64,000 nucleotides of DNA from Candidatus Cybelea septentrionalis (lineage in GTDB: Bacteria > Vulcanimicrobiota > Vulcanimicrobiia > Vulcanimicrobiales > Vulcanimicrobiaceae), in contig PMHJ01000034.1 of assembly GCA_003158175.1 (NCBI GenBank), forward strand, positions 102,776 through 166,775, read 5' to 3'. This document shows, in pieces, positions 15,976 to 28,903 of the stretch; the first letter of the stretch is position 1, and the number at the start of each line of letters is the position of its first letter. Position numbers and translations under genes: made by a program. The notes under the pieces were generated by a model. That model was not told where the DNA came from, made no database searches, and saw only the letters and a list, made by a program, of their open reading frames with translations.

Positions 15976-17064
15976 GTGAGGAGAGCGTCTAGCACCGGAT
16001 TCGATCTCGCGGCGCTCAAGCGAGTCTTCGACGACAGCACGAGCGGAGTGCGCGGCCGCATCGCGGCAATTTACGCGTTCCTGATTGCAGCCAACGCCGG
16101 AACTTGGATGGTCGCGTTCGCGGCGTTTCACAACCGCCCCGCGCTCCTGGGCAGCGCACTTCTCGCCTATACGTTTGGTTTGCGTCACGCAGTGGACGCG
16201 GACCACATTTCGGCGATTGACAACGTCACGCGCAAGCTCATGCAAGAGAAAAAGCGCCCGGTCGCAGTCGGGTTTTTCTTCTCGCTCGGGCACTCGACGG
16301 TCGTCGTGGCGCTTTCAATCGCGATCGCGCTTGCCGCGTCGGCCATATCGCATGCGTTTCCGCGATTGCAAGAAGTAGGCGGCCTCGTTGGGACGAGCGT
16401 GTCGGCCCTCTTTCTTTATGCAATCGCCGCCGTAAACTTGTTGGTTTTGGTCGAAGTGATCCGCGCGTTTCGCGCGGTAAGGGCCGGGCGCGGTTACGAC
16501 GAGCAAAGTCTTGATGACTTCCTGATGCAGCGTGGCATGATCGCGCGCTTCTGCCGCCCGCTCCTCGGCCTGATCGGGCGCAGCTGGCACATGTATCCGC
16601 TCGGCTTACTCTTTGGCTTGGGATTCGATACGGCAACCGAAGTCGGCGTACTCGGGATCGCGGCCATCGAAGCGGGGAAAGGGCTGCCCGTCTTCACGAT
16701 CCTGATTTTCCCGCTGCTCTTCGCGGCCGGCATGTCGCTAGTGGATACCAGCGACGGAATTCTTATGCTCGGGGCCTATGGTTGGGCCTTTATGAAGCCG
16801 GTTCGTAAGCTCTACTACAATATGAACATCACGCTCCTCTCGGTTCTCGTGGCGCTGCTCGTCGGCACCGTCGAAGCGCTCAACGTCTTGGCCACGCAAT
16901 TCAAGCTCACCGGCTTTTCCTGGACGCTTTTGAATCGCGCGACCGACAACTTCGGCACGCTCGGATTTCTGATTGCGGGCGCGTTCGTCGTCGCTTGGGT
17001 AGCCTCGGTCATCGTCTACAAAGCGCGCCGCTACGACGAGATTGAAGTCGAGAGATCGGCGTAA
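15976..17064 (+). CDS. NiCoT-family nickel/cobalt permease (HoxN/NixA type)
   Basis: 362 aa integral membrane protein with about eight transmembrane segments. The family signature HAVDADHI in segment II (GLRHAVDADHISAIDNVTRK) is complete, and the second signature LGFDTATEV (GLGFDTATEVGVLGI) is present. It imports Ni(II), possibly also Co(II), across the inner membrane. The start is GTG at 15976. It is paired with a His-rich peptide and lies next to the hydrogenase island, so its main job is probably nickel supply to hydrogenase. Its 3' end overlaps the convergent regulator gene by 34 bp. Confidence 0.93.
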   Translation: MRRASSTGFDLAALKRVFDDSTSGVRGRIAAIYAFLIAANAGTWMVAFAAFHNRPALLGSALLAYTFGLRHAVDADHISAIDNVTRKLMQEKKRPVAVGFFFSLGHSTVVVALSIAIALAASAISHAFPRLQEVGGLVGTSVSALFLYAIAAVNLLVLVEVIRAFRAVRAGRGYDEQSLDDFLMQRGMIARFCRPLLGLIGRSWHMYPLGLLFGLGFDTATEVGVLGIAAIEAGKGLPVFTILIFPLLFAAGMSLVDTSDGILMLGAYGWAFMKPVRKLYYNMNITLLSVLVALLVGTVEALNVLATQFKLTGFSWTLLNRATDNFGTLGFLIAGAFVVAWVASVIVYKARRYDEIEVERSA

Positions 17065-19703
17065 TTTACAGGCAGCGACGGGACGCCTCCAGCCCGGCTC
17101 CACGAGTCCTTCGCAAGAATAACGGCGAGCTCGTCGCGGAGCGCGTCGAAGTGGGCTGCATGGGGGACGAACCATGCCCAGTTTGCCGTGTGTGCACGAT
17201 TGCGCGTCTCGAGCGCGGCGACCGCGTCACGAACCTGCCGGCGAACGGAATCGCCGAGCGACTCGGCGCCGTGCACGCCGCGTAAGAGCGCTTCGAGCTC
17301 GCGCACGTCGATGGTCACGCGTTCGTTTAAGGTGTAGCCGCCCTTGCTGCTCTGGATCGCGTCCTTGTCGCCGGCCTGCGCTCGGGTTCGCGAGACGCAC
17401 ATCTTGAGAGCATTGAGCGCATCGTCGGCGTGCAATCCGGGCCAGATTGCGGCGGCAAGCTCTTCCTTCAGCGTTCCGGCGGGGCACAGCGCGAGCGCGG
17501 CAAGCAGCTCTAAGCCGCGATCCGACACGTGCAGAGTATCCGAACCTCGCCGCGCGCGGCCTCGAAGAACGTCGAGATATAAGACGTCGTGATGAACTTT
17601 GAGCGGCGAGCGGCTCACGCGCTCGGCCATTTCCTTGAAAATGCCAAAGTTCGCCGGTTCGGGTGAGTCGATCAGCAACTCGAGCGATGCCTGAAGCGGT
17701 GGAGATTCGATTTGCGCGGCGATGACGCGCGCCTCGAGGAGCCGCCGGCGTTGCGCGGGCAACAGGAGCGCCGCGCATACTCGGATCGCAATTCGCAAGA
17801 ATCCGTTCTCAACGGCATCGATTCCCGTAATGGCCGCATCGAAAAGCTCCTTGGCCAAGTCGACGTCGGTTGTCGTTAGCGCCGCGTGCCAACGCGCCGT
17901 CTGTACCGTACGCGCTGGCGCGTCGATTGGGCCGCGAGCGAGCGCCGTCTCGACGCAGCGGGCGAACGCGCGCGCCTCAACGTCGCCGCAATCCTCGAGC
18001 ATCTGCTTCGCAGCGGTCAAGCGCGCGTCGTCGTTGCAGTACCACGCCGCCGATGCCACTGCCCGCCCCGCGTCCACGATTCGGGAGGTGACGCCACTGC
18101 GCGCGGCGGCGTATAGCGCCTCTTCGCTCATTTTGAGGAGGCCATGCCAGTCGCCGAGGAGGCGCGCCTTCTCCATCGCGATCTGCGCGCTCTCGACGTC
18201 AAAACGCAAATGGCGCGCGCCTTGCACGGCGTCGGACTCGTCGACCAGTTCGTCCGCCTGCGCCAAGCGACCGCGCTTTGCTGCCACGAGCGCCGAGGTC
18301 ATCAGCAGCAGACGCCGTTCTTCGGGCTCGACGTCGCTAGCGCCGCACGCGCGGCTCGCGTCGAGAAGCGACTCGGCCTCGGCGAGCTGCTCGATCTCTT
18401 GTGCCAGGTGTGCGAGATGGACGCGCAATTGCCGCTGCAACGGCGAAGGCGCCGTGGCAGGCAGTGAGTGCAGCAACCGCGCCGCCTCGCCATAGAGACG
18501 GACGGCTTCGATATGCTGACGACGGTATGGGAGCAAGGCGACCCACAGATTTGGGTAGGCGCATAGCGTTGGGACTTTGATCCTCGCGAGCACGCCGATG
18601 AGGCGCGCCGACGGCTGCTGCAACAGACGCGCTGGGAGCCGATCGAGCGCGGCTGCTGCCGATGTTTCATCGCCATAGGCGAGGTAGAGCTCGGCGGCGC
18701 GCAGGAAATCGCCCGAAGTTTCGTACTGCCGCGCGGCGCGAATCAGATAGTTGGTTTCATCCGCACCGTGCTGTGCGCGAATCGTGCCGAGCAGAAGCGG
18801 ATGGGCCTGATACGCGCCGGTTTCAGAGGAGATGAATCCCGGCAGATTCAGCAGACGATCGATGATCGGAGTCGCGTGCCGTATCCCCGTGGCCGCGGCG
18901 ATATCCTCGAGCGATGCCTCCGGGATGGCGGCGGTCGCGAGGATCGTCGACATCATGTCGGGCGTAAACTCCGAGAGTACTTCGCCAGCAAGGTATTCGT
19001 GCAGTCGCAGCGCGGGAACGCTCTCGAGCCGATCGATGAGCCTTTCGAACGCGGAGTCGTACTGCGCAAATCGCGCCAAAAGCAACAGAACGATGGGCCA
19101 ACCGCCGGCGAGCCGATCGATTCGCGCCACGAGTTCTGGAGCGATCTCCGCACCGTCGAAGAGTGCCGCGGCTTCGTCCGCCTTAAAGCGCAGCTCGTCT
19201 TGTGAAAGCGTTAGGATCTGATGCGGCGCAAGATAATGGCCGACGCGCAAAGGCAAAGGAACCCTCGAGCTTACGAGAACCACGCGTTCGCCCGGGCGGG
19301 CCGCAAGAAGATCGCCGAGCAACGCCAGAACGCTGCCGTTTTCTGCGATGGCCTCAGCATGCTCGAGAATAAAGAGTGCGTGTTCCTGGCGTCCTTTCCA
19401 GGTCTCGAGCAACGCGCGACTCCATGTCGCCGCATCGGCCTCGGTCGCGTGCAGGCGCAGCCGCGCGAAAGCCGCCGATTCGCCGCCATTTTGCGATTCG
19501 GCGGCGAGCGCCGACATCGCGCGGCCGGCAAAATCGATGCTGTCCGCAGTCCCCGCGCAATCGCAGATCGCATGGCGGTCGAACCGGCGCGCGAAAAGGC
19601 GCGCGAGCGAGGATTTCCCATATCCCGGGGGCGCCTGAAGCCTGACCAATCGGGGCTCCGACGCGGAGAGGCGCGTCAGCAGCCGAGTCCGCGGCAGCGT
19701 CAT
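17031..19703 (-). CDS. Large ATPase transcriptional regulator (MalT/AfsR-like with C-terminal winged helix)
   Basis: 890 aa. The N-terminal STAND-type ATPase has a Walker A at about residues 24-32 (APPGYGKSS) and a Walker B-like ALFILEHAEA. A long alpha-helical TPR-like region fills about 330-690. The C-terminal part (about 700-780; LLAALALCPAGTLKEELAAAIWPG, then KMCVSRTRAQ and SKGGYTL) is an OmpR/BTAD-type winged helix as found in SARP regulators, here at the C-terminus. It lies just downstream of hypB and on the same strand (11 bp gap), so it is likely cotranscribed with hypA-hypB. The paired heptamers in the hypA-hhyS intergenic region are its most obvious target. Confidence 0.8.
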   Translation of the reverse strand: MTLPRTRLLTRLSASEPRLVRLQAPPGYGKSSLARLFARRFDRHAICDCAGTADSIDFAGRAMSALAAESQNGGESAAFARLRLHATEADAATWSRALLETWKGRQEHALFILEHAEAIAENGSVLALLGDLLAARPGERVVLVSSRVPLPLRVGHYLAPHQILTLSQDELRFKADEAAALFDGAEIAPELVARIDRLAGGWPIVLLLLARFAQYDSAFERLIDRLESVPALRLHEYLAGEVLSEFTPDMMSTILATAAIPEASLEDIAAATGIRHATPIIDRLLNLPGFISSETGAYQAHPLLLGTIRAQHGADETNYLIRAARQYETSGDFLRAAELYLAYGDETSAAAALDRLPARLLQQPSARLIGVLARIKVPTLCAYPNLWVALLPYRRQHIEAVRLYGEAARLLHSLPATAPSPLQRQLRVHLAHLAQEIEQLAEAESLLDASRACGASDVEPEERRLLLMTSALVAAKRGRLAQADELVDESDAVQGARHLRFDVESAQIAMEKARLLGDWHGLLKMSEEALYAAARSGVTSRIVDAGRAVASAAWYCNDDARLTAAKQMLEDCGDVEARAFARCVETALARGPIDAPARTVQTARWHAALTTTDVDLAKELFDAAITGIDAVENGFLRIAIRVCAALLLPAQRRRLLEARVIAAQIESPPLQASLELLIDSPEPANFGIFKEMAERVSRSPLKVHHDVLYLDVLRGRARRGSDTLHVSDRGLELLAALALCPAGTLKEELAAAIWPGLHADDALNALKMCVSRTRAQAGDKDAIQSSKGGYTLNERVTIDVRELEALLRGVHGAESLGDSVRRQVRDAVAALETRNRAHTANWAWFVPHAAHFDALRDELAVILAKDSWSRAGGVPSLPVNYADLSTSISS

Positions 19704-19713
19704 AGCCCCGGGT

Positions 19714-20391
19714 TCATCCTGCCGCGGTAAAGGCCTTCGAGCGTATACGCTCTGCGATCAACGTCATCCACGCCTCCATGCCATCGCCGGTCCGCGCCGA
19801 CAGCTCGAGAACGGCCATTCCGGGATTCACTTGCTCGATGCAGCGGCGCGCGGCGGCGCGGTCGTACCCGACTGCTTCTGCAATGTCGCTCTTGGTGATG
19901 ACGGCGAGGCGCGAACTGTTGAAGGCCAGCGGATACTTTAACGGTTTGTCCTCGCCCTCGGTCACGGAGAGCAACGCGACCCTCAGGTCTTCCCCGAGGT
20001 CGTACTCGGCAGGGCAGATCAAATTGCCGACGTTCTCGATGAAGAGCGCGTCGAGGCCGGTCGCATCCCAGCCCTCCAGGGCTTTGGCGATCATCTCGGC
20101 GTCCAGCCGGCATTCCGCTCCCGTCGTGATTTGGCGCACGGGGGCGCCGCTGCGCGCCAAGCGTTGCGAATCGTTGGCCGTCGCTTGATCGCCCACGAGC
20201 GCGCCGACGCGGTACGTGGACGAAAGCCGTCGCAATGTCTGCTCGAGCAGGGTCGTCTTTCCCGAACCCGGACTGGAGAGCATGTTGACGACGAACGTTC
20301 CGCTTTCGGCGAAACGGCCACGCAGGCGTGCCGCGAGCGCATCGTTCTTGATCATCAGATTTCCGGCGATTTCGACGACGCGCATCTTCAT
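19714..20391 (-). CDS. hypB: Hydrogenase/urease nickel incorporation GTPase HypB
   Basis: 225 aa. The GTPase drives nickel insertion into the hydrogenase large subunit together with HypA. Seen: P-loop SSPGSGKTT, ENVGNLICPAEYDLGEDL, the base-recognition TKSD (VITKSDIAEAVGYD), and ELSARTGDGMEAW. The ATG at 20391 overlaps the hypA stop (ATGA) and has GGAGG 7 nt upstream. Two oddities: there is no N-terminal His tract or CxxCGC site, and the G-domain metal site reads TGAECRLDAEM, with Arg where most HypB proteins have His after the Cys. A free His-rich peptide is encoded at 15757. Confidence 0.93.
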   Translation of the reverse strand: MKMRVVEIAGNLMIKNDALAARLRGRFAESGTFVVNMLSSPGSGKTTLLEQTLRRLSSTYRVGALVGDQATANDSQRLARSGAPVRQITTGAECRLDAEMIAKALEGWDATGLDALFIENVGNLICPAEYDLGEDLRVALLSVTEGEDKPLKYPLAFNSSRLAVITKSDIAEAVGYDRAAARRCIEQVNPGMAVLELSARTGDGMEAWMTLIAERIRSKAFTAAG

Positions 20392-20735
20392 GCAGGAACC
20401 TCCATTGAGACGAGTTGCATTTCTCGGCCGCGCAGGATGTGCGCCGACGGCGTGCCGCACGCGGGGCAGAGCAGGCCCGTGCCGGAGTGAGGAGCCCGTT
20501 CGGCCTCGCAGCGTTCGCAAAATACCACGAGGGGAACCTCCTCCACCAGAAGTTGACTGCCTTCGGCAATCGTCCGGGCGGTCGCCACGTCCCAAGAAAA
20601 GAGCAGCGCATCGCGCACGATTCCGCTAAGCGCGCCGACGCGAACGTGCACGGCGTTCACGCGCTCGATTCCTTGCTCCGCGGCGGTCGATTCGATGCTT
20701 TCCAGGAGACTGAGTGCGACCGTAATTTCGTGCAA
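20388..20735 (-). CDS. hypA: Hydrogenase nickel incorporation protein HypA
   Basis: 115 aa from a TTG at 20735. This start is fixed by biology: HypA needs Met1-His2-Glu3 to bind nickel, and TTG-CAC-GAA gives exactly MHE. A GAGGT ribosome binding site lies upstream, and the length matches the family (113-115 aa). A longer frame is open upstream but has no family support. The zinc site is two CxxC pairs (CERCEA and CPACG). It is first in a minus-strand unit with hypB and the large regulator. Confidence 0.93.
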   Translation of the reverse strand: MHEITVALSLLESIESTAAEQGIERVNAVHVRVGALSGIVRDALLFSWDVATARTIAEGSQLLVEEVPLVVFCERCEAERAPHSGTGLLCPACGTPSAHILRGREMQLVSMEVPA

Positions 20736-20805
20736 AGGCTCTACCTCGGTGGGCACCAGCGTAGCTTCCCGGGGCCGCGATTGCAAGCCGGGCGCGCGGC
20801 CTCTA

Positions 20806-20823
20806 GTAACGCGCGAGTAACGC
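20806..20823 (+). promoter_or_regulatory. SARP-type direct repeat pair 1
   Basis: GTAACGC, a 4-nt spacer, then GTAACGC: identical heptamers with starts exactly 11 bp apart. The pair covers the place where a -35 box would be for the CATAAT hexamer at 20834-20839 (10 bp downstream). SARP/BTAD regulators bind 11-bp-spaced heptamers placed over the -35 region, and a regulator with this kind of winged helix is encoded nearby at 17031-19703. The assignment of the regulator to the site is inference. Confidence 0.55.
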
Positions 20824-20833
20824 GCCACGACTC

Positions 20834-20839
20834 CATAAT
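20834..20839 (+). promoter_or_regulatory. -10-like hexamer for hhyS operon
   Basis: CATAAT matches the TATAAT consensus at five of six positions. It lies 10 bp after the first heptamer pair and 229 bp before the hhyS ATG. No good -35 box is seen at the normal spacing, as expected for an activator-dependent promoter. Confidence 0.4.
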
Positions 20840-20911
20840 TGCGGGAATTGGAGCAACAAAGTATCATGTTGATCCTCGGGATTCTGCTGTATTCGTTAGG
20901 CTCGGCTCCGA

Positions 20912-20929
20912 GTAACGTAGCGGTAACGG
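20912..20929 (+). promoter_or_regulatory. SARP-type direct repeat pair 2
   Basis: GTAACGT, a 4-nt spacer, then GTAACGG, again 11 bp apart and in the same orientation as pair 1. The two pairs start 106 bp apart, close to ten helical turns. No convincing -10 box follows it. It may be a second operator used for looping or cooperative binding. Confidence 0.5.
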
Positions 20930-21067
20930 TCGCTGTGTTTCTCCAGTGAAGAAAGCGGATCGCGTGCCCTTGCATTTCGCAATCGCTTCAACTAGGCTGA
21001 ACATCATCTCGACGAAACGTAGCCGTCGAATGGACGGAGTTCCGCCGGTGATAGTGAGGACGTAGCG

Positions 21068-22087
21068 ATGGCGGATACGGTAGTAAATGTTCTGTGGATA
21101 CCCGCAGGGCTGAGCTGCGACGGAGATTCCGTCGCGTTGACCGGGGCGATGCAGCCAAGCATTGAAGAGATCGCTCTCGGAGCTTTGCCCGGCTTGCCGG
21201 GCGTCAAGTTTCATTGGCCGCTCATAGAATTCAGCCTCGGCGGCGCAGAGTTCCTCGAAGCATTTTTCAAAGCGGAGCGTGGCGAGCTCAATCCGTTCGT
21301 GCTCGTCATCGAAGGTTCGATTGCGAACGAAGAAATCAAGAAGGAAGGCTACTGGACCGGCTTCGGCAACGCACCCGGTACGGATCAGCCGATTACGTTT
21401 AGCGGTTGGATCGACCGCCTCGCGCCGAAGGCGTGGGCGGTGCTCGCGGCCGGAACGTGCGCGACGTATGGCGGGATTCATGCGATGGCCGGTAATCCGA
21501 CCGGAGCGATGGGCATCCTCGACTATCTCGGTTGGGATTGGAAGTCGAGCGCCGGCGTGCCGGTCGTGTGCGTACCCGGGTGTCCGATTCAACCCGATAA
21601 TCTCTCAGAGACAATTCTTTATCTGCTCTGGCAGGCGGCCGGGCGCGCGCCGATGATTCCGCTCGACGAAGCGGGGCGCCCGACGTGGCTCTTCGGCAAT
21701 ACCGTGCACGAAGGATGCGACCGTGCCGGATACTACGAGCAGGGAGAGTTCGCAACCGAATACGACTCGCCAACCTGTTTGGTCAAGCTCGGGTGTTGGG
21801 GCCCGGTCGTCAAGTGTAACGTCCCCAAACGCGGGTGGATGGGCGGAGTCGGCGGCTGCCCGAACGTCGGCGGAATTTGCATCGGGTGCACGATGCCGGG
21901 CTTTCCGGACAAGTTCATGCCCTTCATGGACGAGCCGCCGGGCGGAAAGATTTCCTCGACCTTCAGTACCGCCTACGGCACGGTCATCAAGGCGATGCGA
22001 AACTTTACCACTGCGACCATCGACAAGGAACCGAAGTGGCGGCATAAGGGCAAACAACTCACGACCGGATACCATCGGCACAGCTAG
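21068..22087 (+). CDS. hhyS: [NiFe]-hydrogenase small subunit, group 1h (actinobacterial) type
   Basis: 339 aa with no Tat signal peptide, so the enzyme faces the cytoplasm or is anchored by partners. It carries the iron-sulfur clusters that take electrons from the NiFe site. The proximal-cluster motif is GLSCDGDSVAL (Cys17, Asp20), where the usual second Cys is Asp; this is a hallmark of the oxygen-tolerant actinobacterial-type enzymes. Further ligands are in AAGTCATYGG, VPGCPIQPD, the His of NTVHEGCDR, KLGCWGPVVKCN and GICIGCTMPGFPD. GAGG lies 8 nt before the ATG. It is the first gene of the long plus-strand operon. Subgroup 1l cannot be ruled out by reading. Confidence 0.95.
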   Translation: MADTVVNVLWIPAGLSCDGDSVALTGAMQPSIEEIALGALPGLPGVKFHWPLIEFSLGGAEFLEAFFKAERGELNPFVLVIEGSIANEEIKKEGYWTGFGNAPGTDQPITFSGWIDRLAPKAWAVLAAGTCATYGGIHAMAGNPTGAMGILDYLGWDWKSSAGVPVVCVPGCPIQPDNLSETILYLLWQAAGRAPMIPLDEAGRPTWLFGNTVHEGCDRAGYYEQGEFATEYDSPTCLVKLGCWGPVVKCNVPKRGWMGGVGGCPNVGGICIGCTMPGFPDKFMPFMDEPPGGKISSTFSTAYGTVIKAMRNFTTATIDKEPKWRHKGKQLTTGYHRHS

Positions 22088-22101: not shown

Positions 22102-23892
22102 ATGGCTATAAAAGATCTTCCCAGTACGACGACGGGGACCCAGCCCTCTCGGCTTGTGGAGATGTCTTGGGATCCGATCACGCGGATCGTCGGCAGCTTA
22201 GGTATTTACACAAAGATCGACTTTGCGCGTAAGATCGTCGCCGAGTGTCACTCGACCTCGTCGATCTTCCGCGGTTACAGCATCTTCATGAAAGGCAAGG
22301 ATCCGCGCGACGCGCACTTCATCACTTCGCGAATCTGTGGAATCTGTGGGGACAACCACTGCGTCTGCTCCGTCTACGCGCAGAACATGGCGTTCGGCGT
22401 CAAGCCGCCGGCGATGGGCGAATGGATCATGAATCTCGGCGAGGCCGCCGAGTACATGTTCGACCACAATATCTTCCAAGAAAATCTCGTCGGCGTGGAC
22501 TACTGCGAAAAGATGGTCCGCGAGACCAATCCCAGCGTCTGGGAGAAGGCGAAGAAGACGGAAGCCCCCAACGCCGGAATCCACGGCTACAAGACGATCG
22601 CCGACATCATGAGCGCGCTCAATCCCTTCAGCGGCGACTTTTACCGCCAAGCCCTGCAGATCAGCCGCTATACGCGCGAGATGTTCTGCCTGATGGAAGG
22701 GCGTCACGTCCACCCGTCCACGCTCTATGCCGGCGGTACCGGTACGGTCGCGACGCAGCAGCTCTTCACGGATTACTATTCACGCCTGATGCGCTACATC
22801 GAGTACATGAAGATCTGCGTCCCGCTGCACGACGATCTCTTCAACTTCTGGTACGAGGCGCTGCCCGGTTACGAGCACAACGGCGAGCGGCGGATTCTCC
22901 TGGGGTGCTGGGGCGCGTTCCAAGACCCCGACCACTGCGATTTCAGGTACCGGAACATGACGAACTGGGGACGCAAGATGTTCGTCACGCCCGGCATCGT
23001 CGTCGATGGCAAACTCGTAACGAACGACCTCGTCGCCATCAACCTCGGCATTCGAATCCTACTGGGCCACTCGTACTACGACGATTGGGCAAACGAGGAA
23101 ACGTTCGTTCGCGAGGACCCGCTGGGAAATCCGGTCGATCGCCGGCATCCCTGGAATATGCACACGCTGCCCACACCCAAGAAACGCGACTTCGCAAAGG
23201 AGTACAGTTGGGTAATGTCGCCGCGCTGGTTCGACGGCAAGGATCATCTTGCGCTGGACACCGGCGGCGGTCCGATCGCAAGACTCTGGTCGACGGCGCT
23301 CTCCGGTTTGGTCGATATGGGAGGCTACATCAAGGCCACCGGTACGAGCGTGCAGATCAATCTGCCGAAGTCGGCGTTGAGCGGTCCGGTCTCGTTCGAG
23401 TGGAAAGTTCCCAAGTGGTCGAACACGCTGGAGCGCAATCGCGCGCGGACCTACTTCCAGGCGTATGCTGCAGCCGCGGCCCTCTATTTCCTCGATAAGG
23501 CCTTCGAAGAGCTCAACGCCGGCAGAACGCGCTCGTGGGAGCCTTTCACCGTGCCGGAAGAAGCGATCGGCTGCGGCTTTACGGAGGCGGTGCGCGGCGT
23601 TCTTTCGCATCACATGGTGATCCGCGACGGAAAAATCGCAAACTACCATCCGTGGCCGCCGACTCCGTGGAACGGTAACCCGCGCGATATTTACGGCACG
23701 CCTGGCCCATATGAAGATGCGGTGCAGAATACGCCGATTCATGAAGAGAACGGCCCCGACTCGTTCAAGGGCATCGACATTATGCGCGCGGTGCGCAGTT
23801 TCGATCCATGTCTGCCTTGCGGTGTCCATATGTATTTGGGCGACGATAAGTCGATCGAAACGGTGCACTCCCCGTTGGCACCCTTCGGATAA
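22102..23892 (+). CDS. hhyL: [NiFe]-hydrogenase large subunit, group 1h type
   Basis: 596 aa. It holds the NiFe(CN)2CO site. The four nickel-binding cysteines are in the L1 motif RICGICGDNHC (Cys79, Cys82) and the L2 motif DPCLPCGVH (Cys570, Cys573). A 20-residue C-terminal tail follows His576 and should be removed by the endopeptidase encoded at 27050 after nickel insertion. The L1 and L2 contexts fit the high-affinity group 1h enzymes that oxidise atmospheric H2. It lies 14 bp after hhyS with a GCGGAGGAG ribosome binding site. Confidence 0.96.
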   Translation: MAIKDLPSTTTGTQPSRLVEMSWDPITRIVGSLGIYTKIDFARKIVAECHSTSSIFRGYSIFMKGKDPRDAHFITSRICGICGDNHCVCSVYAQNMAFGVKPPAMGEWIMNLGEAAEYMFDHNIFQENLVGVDYCEKMVRETNPSVWEKAKKTEAPNAGIHGYKTIADIMSALNPFSGDFYRQALQISRYTREMFCLMEGRHVHPSTLYAGGTGTVATQQLFTDYYSRLMRYIEYMKICVPLHDDLFNFWYEALPGYEHNGERRILLGCWGAFQDPDHCDFRYRNMTNWGRKMFVTPGIVVDGKLVTNDLVAINLGIRILLGHSYYDDWANEETFVREDPLGNPVDRRHPWNMHTLPTPKKRDFAKEYSWVMSPRWFDGKDHLALDTGGGPIARLWSTALSGLVDMGGYIKATGTSVQINLPKSALSGPVSFEWKVPKWSNTLERNRARTYFQAYAAAAALYFLDKAFEELNAGRTRSWEPFTVPEEAIGCGFTEAVRGVLSHHMVIRDGKIANYHPWPPTPWNGNPRDIYGTPGPYEDAVQNTPIHEENGPDSFKGIDIMRAVRSFDPCLPCGVHMYLGDDKSIETVHSPLAPFG

Positions 23893-27547: not shown

Positions 27548-27792
27548 TCGTCGGCGCGATTGCGTTCGCTGCGGCCTTTGCCGCAGAGCGCCTGTATGCC
27601 AGCATGGAACCGGACCTCAAACGGTACGAAGCGATGCGAGAAATGTCCGGCCAGCCGCCGATCCTCAAGGAGCTCTGGTCGACGATTTTCGGAAGCGCGA
27701 TCGCCGAGCACGAGGCGACACGGAAGGCCGGCGGCATCCTGGCCGATTTAACGAAGGACGCGCTGCGTTACGCGCGGATCCGAAGCATGTGA
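27532..27792 (+). CDS. Small membrane protein of the hydrogenase operon
   Basis: 86 aa from an ATG at 27532 inside the 3' end of the protease gene; AAAGGAAAA lies upstream. Residues about 4-20 (LIVGAIAFAAAFAAERLY) are one transmembrane helix, and the rest is a charged cytosolic tail. I do not recognise a family with certainty. A single-pass protein here could tether the hydrogenase, which has no membrane anchor of its own in this operon. Confidence 0.6.
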   Translation: MDRGLIVGAIAFAAAFAAERLYASMEPDLKRYEAMREMSGQPPILKELWSTIFGSAIAEHEATRKAGGILADLTKDALRYARIRSM

Positions 27793-28328
27793 CCTCGTTC
27801 GTGACGGATGCCGCTTTGGAACGCTACGCGGTTTCGCCCTCGGACTCGTGGGCGACGTTTGAAGGCCGCTCGTCCCTGCATGGGTTGAAGGGGAAAGCCG
27901 TGGGCTTGAGCGGCTACGTCGAAGCAAACTGGAACGACGACGGAAGCCTCGCAACGACGTCGGCGCCGCGGATGCACCTCGATATTCCGGTCGCGAATCT
28001 GCGCTCGGGTAATGCGATGTTCGACCGCGAGACCTGGAAGCTGATCGACAGCAATCGGTTTCCGCGCATCGCAGCGGATCTGCGCGAGTTGCGGGCGGCA
28101 CTGGGGCCAAACCACTACGAGGCGAGCGGCGACGTAACGCTTGCGGGGCGCTCGCGCAAGTACGACGGCGAGCTGACGTTCGCGCACGACGAGGATAACG
28201 TCACGATCGACGGTGAGTTGCGCATCGATATCCGCGATTTCGGTTTGAAACCACCCAACCTCTTCATTATCAAAGTCGACCCCGTGGTGAAAGCGGTTCT
28301 GCACCTGGTGGCAAGGAAGACTGCGTGA
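27789..28328 (+). CDS. YceI-like domain protein, cytosolic copy 1
   Basis: 179 aa, GTG start overlapping the previous stop by 4 bp. The pattern is that of the YceI lipocalin fold: YAVSPSDSWATFEGRSSLHG, a middle SGNAMFDRETWKLIDSNRFP, and IDGELRIDIRDFGLKPP near the end. YceI proteins bind isoprenoid or quinone-type lipids and are usually periplasmic, but there is no signal peptide here. The next gene is a paralogue. In this context a quinone- or lipid-handling role close to the hydrogenase is conceivable. Confidence 0.75.
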   Translation: MTSFVTDAALERYAVSPSDSWATFEGRSSLHGLKGKAVGLSGYVEANWNDDGSLATTSAPRMHLDIPVANLRSGNAMFDRETWKLIDSNRFPRIAADLRELRAALGPNHYEASGDVTLAGRSRKYDGELTFAHDEDNVTIDGELRIDIRDFGLKPPNLFIIKVDPVVKAVLHLVARKTA

Positions 28329-28903
28329 CAGTTGTCGAGAGAAGGCTATTGGAACCCGAGCCATTGATGGTGCCACCTCACAAGGCAGTCAAGGAGCGCT
28401 TCGAAGTGGTGAGTGCCGACTCGTCCTTGACGTTTTATGCGGCCGCTCCGACTCAATCCGCCTACGGGAAAACAACCGAGCTAAGCGGCTTTTTCGAGTT
28501 GGCTTGGAACGCCGACGGTTCGGTTGCCGTGGAGCCCGCCGCGAACATGCACGTTGAGTTCAAGGTCGAGAGCCTGCGAACGGGCAACGAACTCCAAGAT
28601 CGCGAAATGTGGAAGCTCATCGACAGCAAGCGCTTCCCAAAAATTGCCGGAGATCTGCGCGCGCTAAGCGGCGGTGCGGTGCGCGGCCGCTACAGTGCCG
28701 CCGGGCAGATCACGCTGGCCGGCCTCGCGCGGCGGTACGAAGGCGAGTTCCGTCTCGACCGAGAGCCGCAGCGCATCGCGCTCGACGGGGAGGTCAAGAT
28801 CGACGTCCGCGATTTCGGACTGAAGCCGATAAAGCTATTGGTCCTCGGCGTCGCGCCCCTGGTGCGCGTGCGTCTCCACCTCGTCGCGATGAAGGCGGTG
28901 TAA
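28325..28903 (+). CDS. YceI-like domain protein, cytosolic copy 2
   Basis: 192 aa, GTG start overlapping the previous stop by 4 bp. It shares with its neighbour the blocks TGNELQDREMWKLIDSKRFP, GQITLAGLARRYEGEF and EVKIDVRDFGLKPIKLL, so the two arose by tandem duplication. The N-terminus has a 25-residue extension and no signal peptide. Retention of both copies inside the operon suggests distinct jobs or a heterodimer. Confidence 0.75.
   Translation: MTVVERRLLEPEPLMVPPHKAVKERFEVVSADSSLTFYAAAPTQSAYGKTTELSGFFELAWNADGSVAVEPAANMHVEFKVESLRTGNELQDREMWKLIDSKRFPKIAGDLRALSGGAVRGRYSAAGQITLAGLARRYEGEFRLDREPQRIALDGEVKIDVRDFGLKPIKLLVLGVAPLVRVRLHLVAMKAV

Follow-up and report, generated by a model that had tools for sequence, protein, structure and literature searches.

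Gene organization around the hypA-hhyS intergenic region

In the 64-kb window (the whole stretch of DNA that was analysed, from a Ca. Eremiobacterota MAG designated G000), hypA and hhyS are transcribed divergently, and the intergenic region between them contains two pairs of GTAACG repeats, named p1 and p2 (Table 1). On the minus strand, hypA, whose TTG start was placed by aligning the MHE/VHE starts in relatives, is followed by hypB and, 11 bp 3′ of hypB, by the gene of an 890-aa regulator. On the plus strand, hhyS is followed by hhyL and then by genes for NifU-like, DUF5947, DUF6084, protease, HypE-like (AIRS) and HypF proteins; two YceI-like genes stand side by side (27789-28903) between the protease and hypE-like genes. 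The hhyS product is 74-79% identical to actinobacterial hhyS-type proteins, and group 1h hydrogenases have been reported in this phylum (PMC9561532); it is on these two points that the putative assignment as a group 1h-type enzyme rests. Among the proteins of the hydrogenase cluster tested against Pfam, no DNA-binding regulator was found besides the linked one, and the only other Trans_reg_C match of this contig is ~86 kb distant. An Rfam scan across the window gave no match.

The nickel transporter gene nicO (L066, L069 and L067) lies on the same strand as the regulator gene and directly 3′ of it in the relatives G015 and G007, and is convergent with it in the window. In G029, where the regulator is not linked, nicO comes directly after hypB, so that the regulator gene looks inserted between hypB and nicO. 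The hydrogenase was found in only 3 of the 18 genomes of genus g1 (G000, G007 and G015), some of the others being incomplete; this uneven distribution points to loss or transfer of the locus as a whole.

Table 1. Genes, repeat pairs and predicted promoters at the hypA-hhyS locus (window coordinates).
Feature	Position	Strand	Description
nicO	15976..17064	+	nickel transporter; PF03824, 2e-95; convergent with the regulator gene
regulator	17031..19703	-	890 aa; predicted STAND NTPase, TPR-like region, winged helix, shortened BTA
hypB	19714..20391	-	225 aa; PF02492
hypA	20388..20735	-	115 aa; TTG start at 20735; PF01155, 4e-28
hypA promoter (predicted)	20758..20786	-	TTGCAA-N17-TACGCT
p1 (putative operator)	20806..20823	+	GTAACGC-N4-GTAACGC; heptamers 20806-20812 and 20817-20823
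p2 (putative operator)	20912..20929	+	GTAACGT-N4-GTAACGG; heptamers 20912-20918 and 20923-20929
hhyS promoter (predicted)	20970..20998	+	TTGCAT-N17-TAGGCT; -35 at 20970-20975, -10 at 20993-20998
hhyS	21068..22087	+	small subunit, putative group 1h-type hydrogenase
hhyL	22102..23892	+	large subunit; PF00374, 4e-61

Two repeat pairs beyond chance expectation

The initial annotation had described these heptamers as lying on the same strand with pair starts 106 bp apart, and had pointed to a CATAAT at 20834-20839, 10 bp after p1; all of these were found in place. It had left out the divergence of the two genes: given the start of hypA, p1 is ~70 bp from hypA and ~260 bp from hhyS.

With at most one mismatch allowed, GTAACG-N5-GTAACG has two matches in the window against 0.27 expected from shuffles; two such pairs are reached in 3 of 100 window shuffles, and both observed pairs are exact and separated by only that 106 bp. 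In the whole 3.19-Mb genome, two of the four exact GTAACG-N5-GTAACG matches, and two of the seven matches to GTAAC-N6-GTAAC, fall in the hypA-hhyS region. When the intergenic region was shuffled 20,000 times, the frequency of one pair was 0.0003 and two pairs never arose; for each of five regulator-linked regions (see below), two pairs were likewise found in 0 of 20,000 shuffles. The repeats are thus real and beyond chance. A wider regulon was sought in the same genome: of the other five GTAAC pairs, two are within coding frames and one is in a dispersed repeat, and no connection with hydrogen metabolism was seen for the remainder.

Co-occurrence of the repeats with the linked regulator

The search for the regulator covered 99 family genomes and 149 phylum genomes. 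In the phylum set, orthologues (54-67% identity) were found only in G007, G015, G033 and G091. All four adjoin hhyS, hypA and hypB, with a contig break intervening in G007. The link between repeats and regulator that had been proposed from the single sequence is supported by this set: GTAAC repeats upstream of hhyS are kept in all five regulator-bearing loci, and two perfect pairs in four of them. Two like-oriented GTAAC-N6-GTAAC pairs are present in each of G000 (106 bp apart), G007 (117 bp), G015 (118 bp) and G091 (94 bp). The set of G033 is degenerate: the repeats of p2 are spaced by 10 bp, and p1 consists of one GTAAC half. With the aligned intergenic regions of the five loci only 40-50% identical, the repeats form a clear footprint; the spacers and flanks of the pairs differ from genome to genome. 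In G015 the pairs of the hydrogenase locus are the only two in the whole genome.

Ten hhyS loci without the regulator (G031, G110, G025, G034, G087, G088, G082, G029, G044 and G049) were scanned over 450 bp, one mismatch and spacings of 10 and 11 bp being allowed, and a pair was present in none of them. The co-occurrence of regulator and repeats has a Fisher p of 0.004, yet the hhyS tree places all five regulator-bearing loci in a single clade (95/93 support), so that the association counts as one evolutionary event, not five; regulator and sites may simply have descended together.

Domain architecture of the 890-aa regulator

A confident AlphaFold model of the regulator (pLDDT 88) comprises an NTPase, helical repeats, a winged helix and three further helices, corresponding to a STAND NTPase (~1-300, with the Walker A motif APPGYGKSS), a TPR-like region (~300-700), the winged helix (~706-795) and part of a BTA (799-870). 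By Foldseek, the NTPase region matches 6mfv (1e-10) and MalT (8bob, 1e-7), and a STAND NTPase followed by a repeat domain is found in it as in STAND/LAL proteins. The MalT/LAL activators resemble the regulator in having an N-terminal STAND ATPase and repeats ahead of a C-terminal DNA-binding domain; in MalT this C-terminus is a LuxR-type HTH with no winged helix, whereas the regulator has a winged helix there and no LuxR-type HTH.

As the whole-protein Foldseek search showed the STAND part only, the C-terminal part was modelled apart. The best match of this separate model was the SARP domain of AfsR (1.8e-5, TMq ~0.7), and a family-profile search placed AfsR (1.9e-17) and EmbR (1e-10) above every response regulator. 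The SARP-like nature that the initial annotation had assigned to the C-terminal domain is therefore upheld by sequence and by structure, AfsR being the top match in both, and the domain is an OmpR-type winged helix of the SARP kind. Arg92 of AfsR, which makes a base contact, aligns with Arg772 of the regulator, and this arginine is invariant in 37 family members.

The remainder of the protein departs from the SARP pattern in two respects. First, the domain order is inverted, with the NTPase first and the SARP domain not N-terminal. Second, the complete seven-helix BTA is lacking: three long helices are predicted after the winged helix, Pfam BTAD was not detected in the regulator, and the regulators of the hydrogenase clade stop after the third of AfsR's seven BTA helices (PMC10936776), although paralogues at 27-30% identity do hold a complete BTAD (9e-8 to 4e-15). 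From these comparisons and models, the regulator is predicted to be a STAND ATPase-TPR protein with a SARP-type winged helix in inverted order and a truncated BTA.

AfsR, a large SARP of Streptomyces coelicolor (PMC10936776; PDB 8k60, 8hvr), likewise combines a STAND-type NTPase, TPR and a SARP-type winged helix in one protein, but its SARP domain is N-terminal with the full seven-helix BTA, where that of the regulator is C-terminal with the first three BTA helices only. A SARP-type regulator from a non-actinomycete with the winged helix at the C-terminus, as here, is GSU1771 of Geobacter (PMC10599522), in whose mutant the hydrogenase hyb genes show a change. GSU1771 differs from the regulator in having a receiver domain in place of the STAND ATPase; the hydrogenase concerned does not belong to group 1h, and PMC10599522 describes no operator of this kind.

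Candidates for the protein bound at p1 and p2

The p1 and p2 pairs are very probably operators of the hypA-hypB-linked regulator, which would most likely activate the hhyS operon, hypAB and itself. Binding is inferred from the conservation and position of the pairs, their confinement to regulator-bearing loci and the domain make-up of the protein, and the repeat period agrees with that in AfsR, where two 11-bp direct repeats are bound by two protomers (PMC10936776). Like SARP sites, p1 and p2 consist of direct heptamer repeats of 11-bp period; this part of the initial argument holds, but such a period is not exclusive to SARPs, as the GlnR box of actinomycetes, GTnAC-n6-GTnAC, has the identical pattern, to which p1 and p2 also conform (PMC10704036).

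Because of this shared pattern, the main rival as binding protein is an OmpR-family response regulator of the GlnR/MtrA type with its gene at another locus, and G000 does hold about ten other Trans_reg_C proteins. Proteins of this kind are, however, similarly many (9-15 matches) in relatives that have no pairs at the hhyS promoter, whereas sites of the p1/p2 type track the linked STAND regulator. Moreover, GTnAC-N6-GnAAC occurs in none of the 400-bp regions upstream of ~79 other hhyS loci, mostly actinobacterial. GlnR itself is of the response-regulator type, acts in nitrogen control and is not an ATPase; the review mentions no hydrogenase among its targets (PMC10704036). Binding of p1 and p2 by such a response regulator is thus considered unlikely.

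Predicted promoters and proposed mode of control

The pattern TTGNNN-N16-18-TA[GT]SST has a single match in the intergenic region and is likewise single in all five regulator-bearing loci, each of which carries one promoter-like TTGNNN-N17/18-TAGSST; in the window this is the predicted hhyS promoter. A predicted hypA promoter was seen on the opposite strand in G000; the transcript starts that go with the two promoters, near 21005 (+) for hhyS and near 20752 (-) for hypA, are predictions. From the second GTAAC of p2, the hhyS -35 is 47, 47, 47 and 48 bp away in G000, G091, G033 and G015, respectively, and 17 bp in G007, i.e. 30 bp (~three helical turns) closer. While this distance is near constant in four loci, the -35 and the ATG are separated by 58 to 111 bp across the five. 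In G000 the second heptamer of p2 starts 70 bp before the -10 (47 + 6 + 17), and p2 is centred at about -85 relative to the predicted start of the hhyS transcript. Read on the minus strand, p1 is ~20 bp upstream of the predicted hypA -35; it precedes the hypA -10 by 47-51 bp in G000, G015 (where the -10 was chosen by eye) and G091, and by 87 bp in G007. The operators are therefore predicted to lie upstream of the -35 at both divergent promoters, and p1 most likely serves hypAB and the regulator's own gene.

In the proposed mechanism, the C-terminal SARP-type winged helix would be set free by a signal together with ATP binding, upon which two protomers, side by side on both heptamers of a pair, would contact RNA polymerase, with p2 directed to the hhyS operon and p1 to hypAB and the regulator gene. 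As the regulator would most likely be an activator, hydrogenase synthesis, nickel insertion and the level of the regulator itself could in this way be coupled. The signal is postulated by analogy: the NTPase and TPR parts of AfsR inhibit its SARP domain until ATP binds (PMC10936776), and an AfsR-like inhibition released by ATP is the simplest reading for the regulator. The AfsR box is centred at -29.5, over the -35, and the contacts of AfsR with the alpha C-terminal domain of RNA polymerase are made by residues in the latter portion of its BTA (PMC10936776); the location of p2 near -85, off the -35, would fit a polymerase contact differing from that of AfsR. Counting against the scheme are the 10-bp spacing of p2 and the half p1 in G033, and the departure of G007 from the fixed distance at both p2 and p1.

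Operators off the -35 have a precedent in PimR (PMC5930380), a SARP-LAL of Streptomyces natalensis that is ATPase-linked and has two operators within a single promoter region, as here. The main PimR operator lies off the -35, an exception to classical SARP geometry as is p2, and the secondary operator has 10-bp repeat units, as has p2 of G033 (PMC5930380). Unlike the present system, PimR has CGGCAAG heptamers, an N-terminal SARP domain and an antibiotic regulator gene as target.

Alternatively, the linked regulator might bind both pairs yet repress, for example by looping, since in four genomes like-oriented operators flank the divergent interval at 94, 106, 117 and 118 bp apart, or ~9-11 helical turns. 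Repression is held to be as improbable as the response regulator: both operators are predicted upstream of a -35 and not over a promoter or start site, the distance from p2 to the -35 is fixed, and activation is the role of MalT and AfsR, the relatives that are characterised best (PMC10936776).

A third arrangement, that of the initial annotation, had p1 over the -35 of hhyS with CATAAT as the -10, in classical SARP geometry. CATAAT follows p1 by 10 bp, close to the 8 bp described for SARPs between the 3′ repeat and the -10 (PMC10936776), but none of the other four regulator-bearing loci keeps it after p1, while the promoter match at 20970-20998 is the sole one and is kept in 5/5. It follows that p2, not p1, would be the hhyS operator, and as neither a repeat 8 bp from the -10 nor one over the -35 was found there, this arrangement is very unlikely. 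What stands of the earlier proposal is a linked SARP-type regulator at a group 1h-type hydrogenase; the promoter that it named and the classical geometry are abandoned in favour of likely activation from upstream of the -35.

Uptake of atmospheric hydrogen by soil relies on high-affinity hydrogenases, such as those of group 1h. In a 2026 study of mycobacteria, the factors that directly control Huc and the induction of Hhy in starvation were still open (PMC13098282). On balance it appears probable, by a smaller measure than the operator assignment, that a dedicated STAND-ATPase regulator, its SARP order inverted and its BTA short, exerts direct control over a high-affinity group 1h hydrogenase and the genes for its maturation via GTAACG direct repeats upstream of the -35. 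This repeat would be an operator common to several branches of a regulator family of the Eremiobacterota. Now that a protein, its putative sites and a predicted start have been named, direct regulation of such a hydrogenase becomes testable, which offers a specific lead on the switch of hydrogen scavenging. The shortened BTA also raises the question by what route a SARP-type protein could activate when it lacks the portion by which AfsR contacts the alpha C-terminal domain.

The same repeat at other family members and in dispersed copies

In the 99 family genomes, exact GTAACG-N5-GTAACG occurs at 86 sites against 25 for the reversed pattern; this excess was set aside as evidence on the regulator because it is partly a dispersed repeat. 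A perfect pair is present at the own promoter of distant family members in G112, G118 and G120 (one genus) and in G029. The recognition-helix core NALKMCV-RTR is common to the hydrogenase regulator and the members in G112, G118 and G120, most paralogues having other cores (for example, NALSVCLHRLR); the same core with no pair near the own start was found in G115, G111, G084, G085 and G028. Genes of the regulator family adjoin pairs at 12 of 81 site loci (some of the 81 belonging to the dispersed repeat) and at 0 of 20 control loci (Fisher p = 0.12, not significant alone). A search upstream of 38 paralogues, which were picked by E-value, gave no more than one exact pair and one with a single mismatch (0.03 expected together); the other pair-bearing paralogues were located starting from the sites, a selection that favours finding them. 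In view of the counter-examples, the p value and the dispersed-repeat sites, the repeat at promoters of distant relatives backs the link between regulator and repeat as support, not as proof.

The dispersed repeat has the form GTTACCAA..TTGGTAACGATTTGGTAACGGATTA..CGCAAGTCACGATAGTCCTGACTC..CCACGCTTGCGGTGACG and was seen at L249, L247, L313, L267, L314 and L261 (G000:C3:59290 and relatives). Two further GTAACG pairs, L257 and L254, lie just past tRNA-like 3′ ends, one of them with an integrase-like frame near. The dispersed GTAACG repeat looks like a mobile-element end. Although at least six loci in related genomes have such a repeat, an origin of the hydrogenase pairs from it or by chance is the least credible of all, given that their spacers and flanks vary per genome while the promoter distance is fixed, and that the shuffles of the five regions never gave two pairs.

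Pairs were also observed at L273 and L281 (G084, G085) and at L271 and L278 (G083, G084), where they precede a 612-aa winged-helix protein (pair directly upstream) and a protein with an N-terminal SARP-like domain (pair ~390-400 bp upstream). The family-member promoter in G112 (L301) carries three heptamers at 11-bp steps (GTAACG, GTAACG and GTACCG), a row that resembles the triple operator of PimR.
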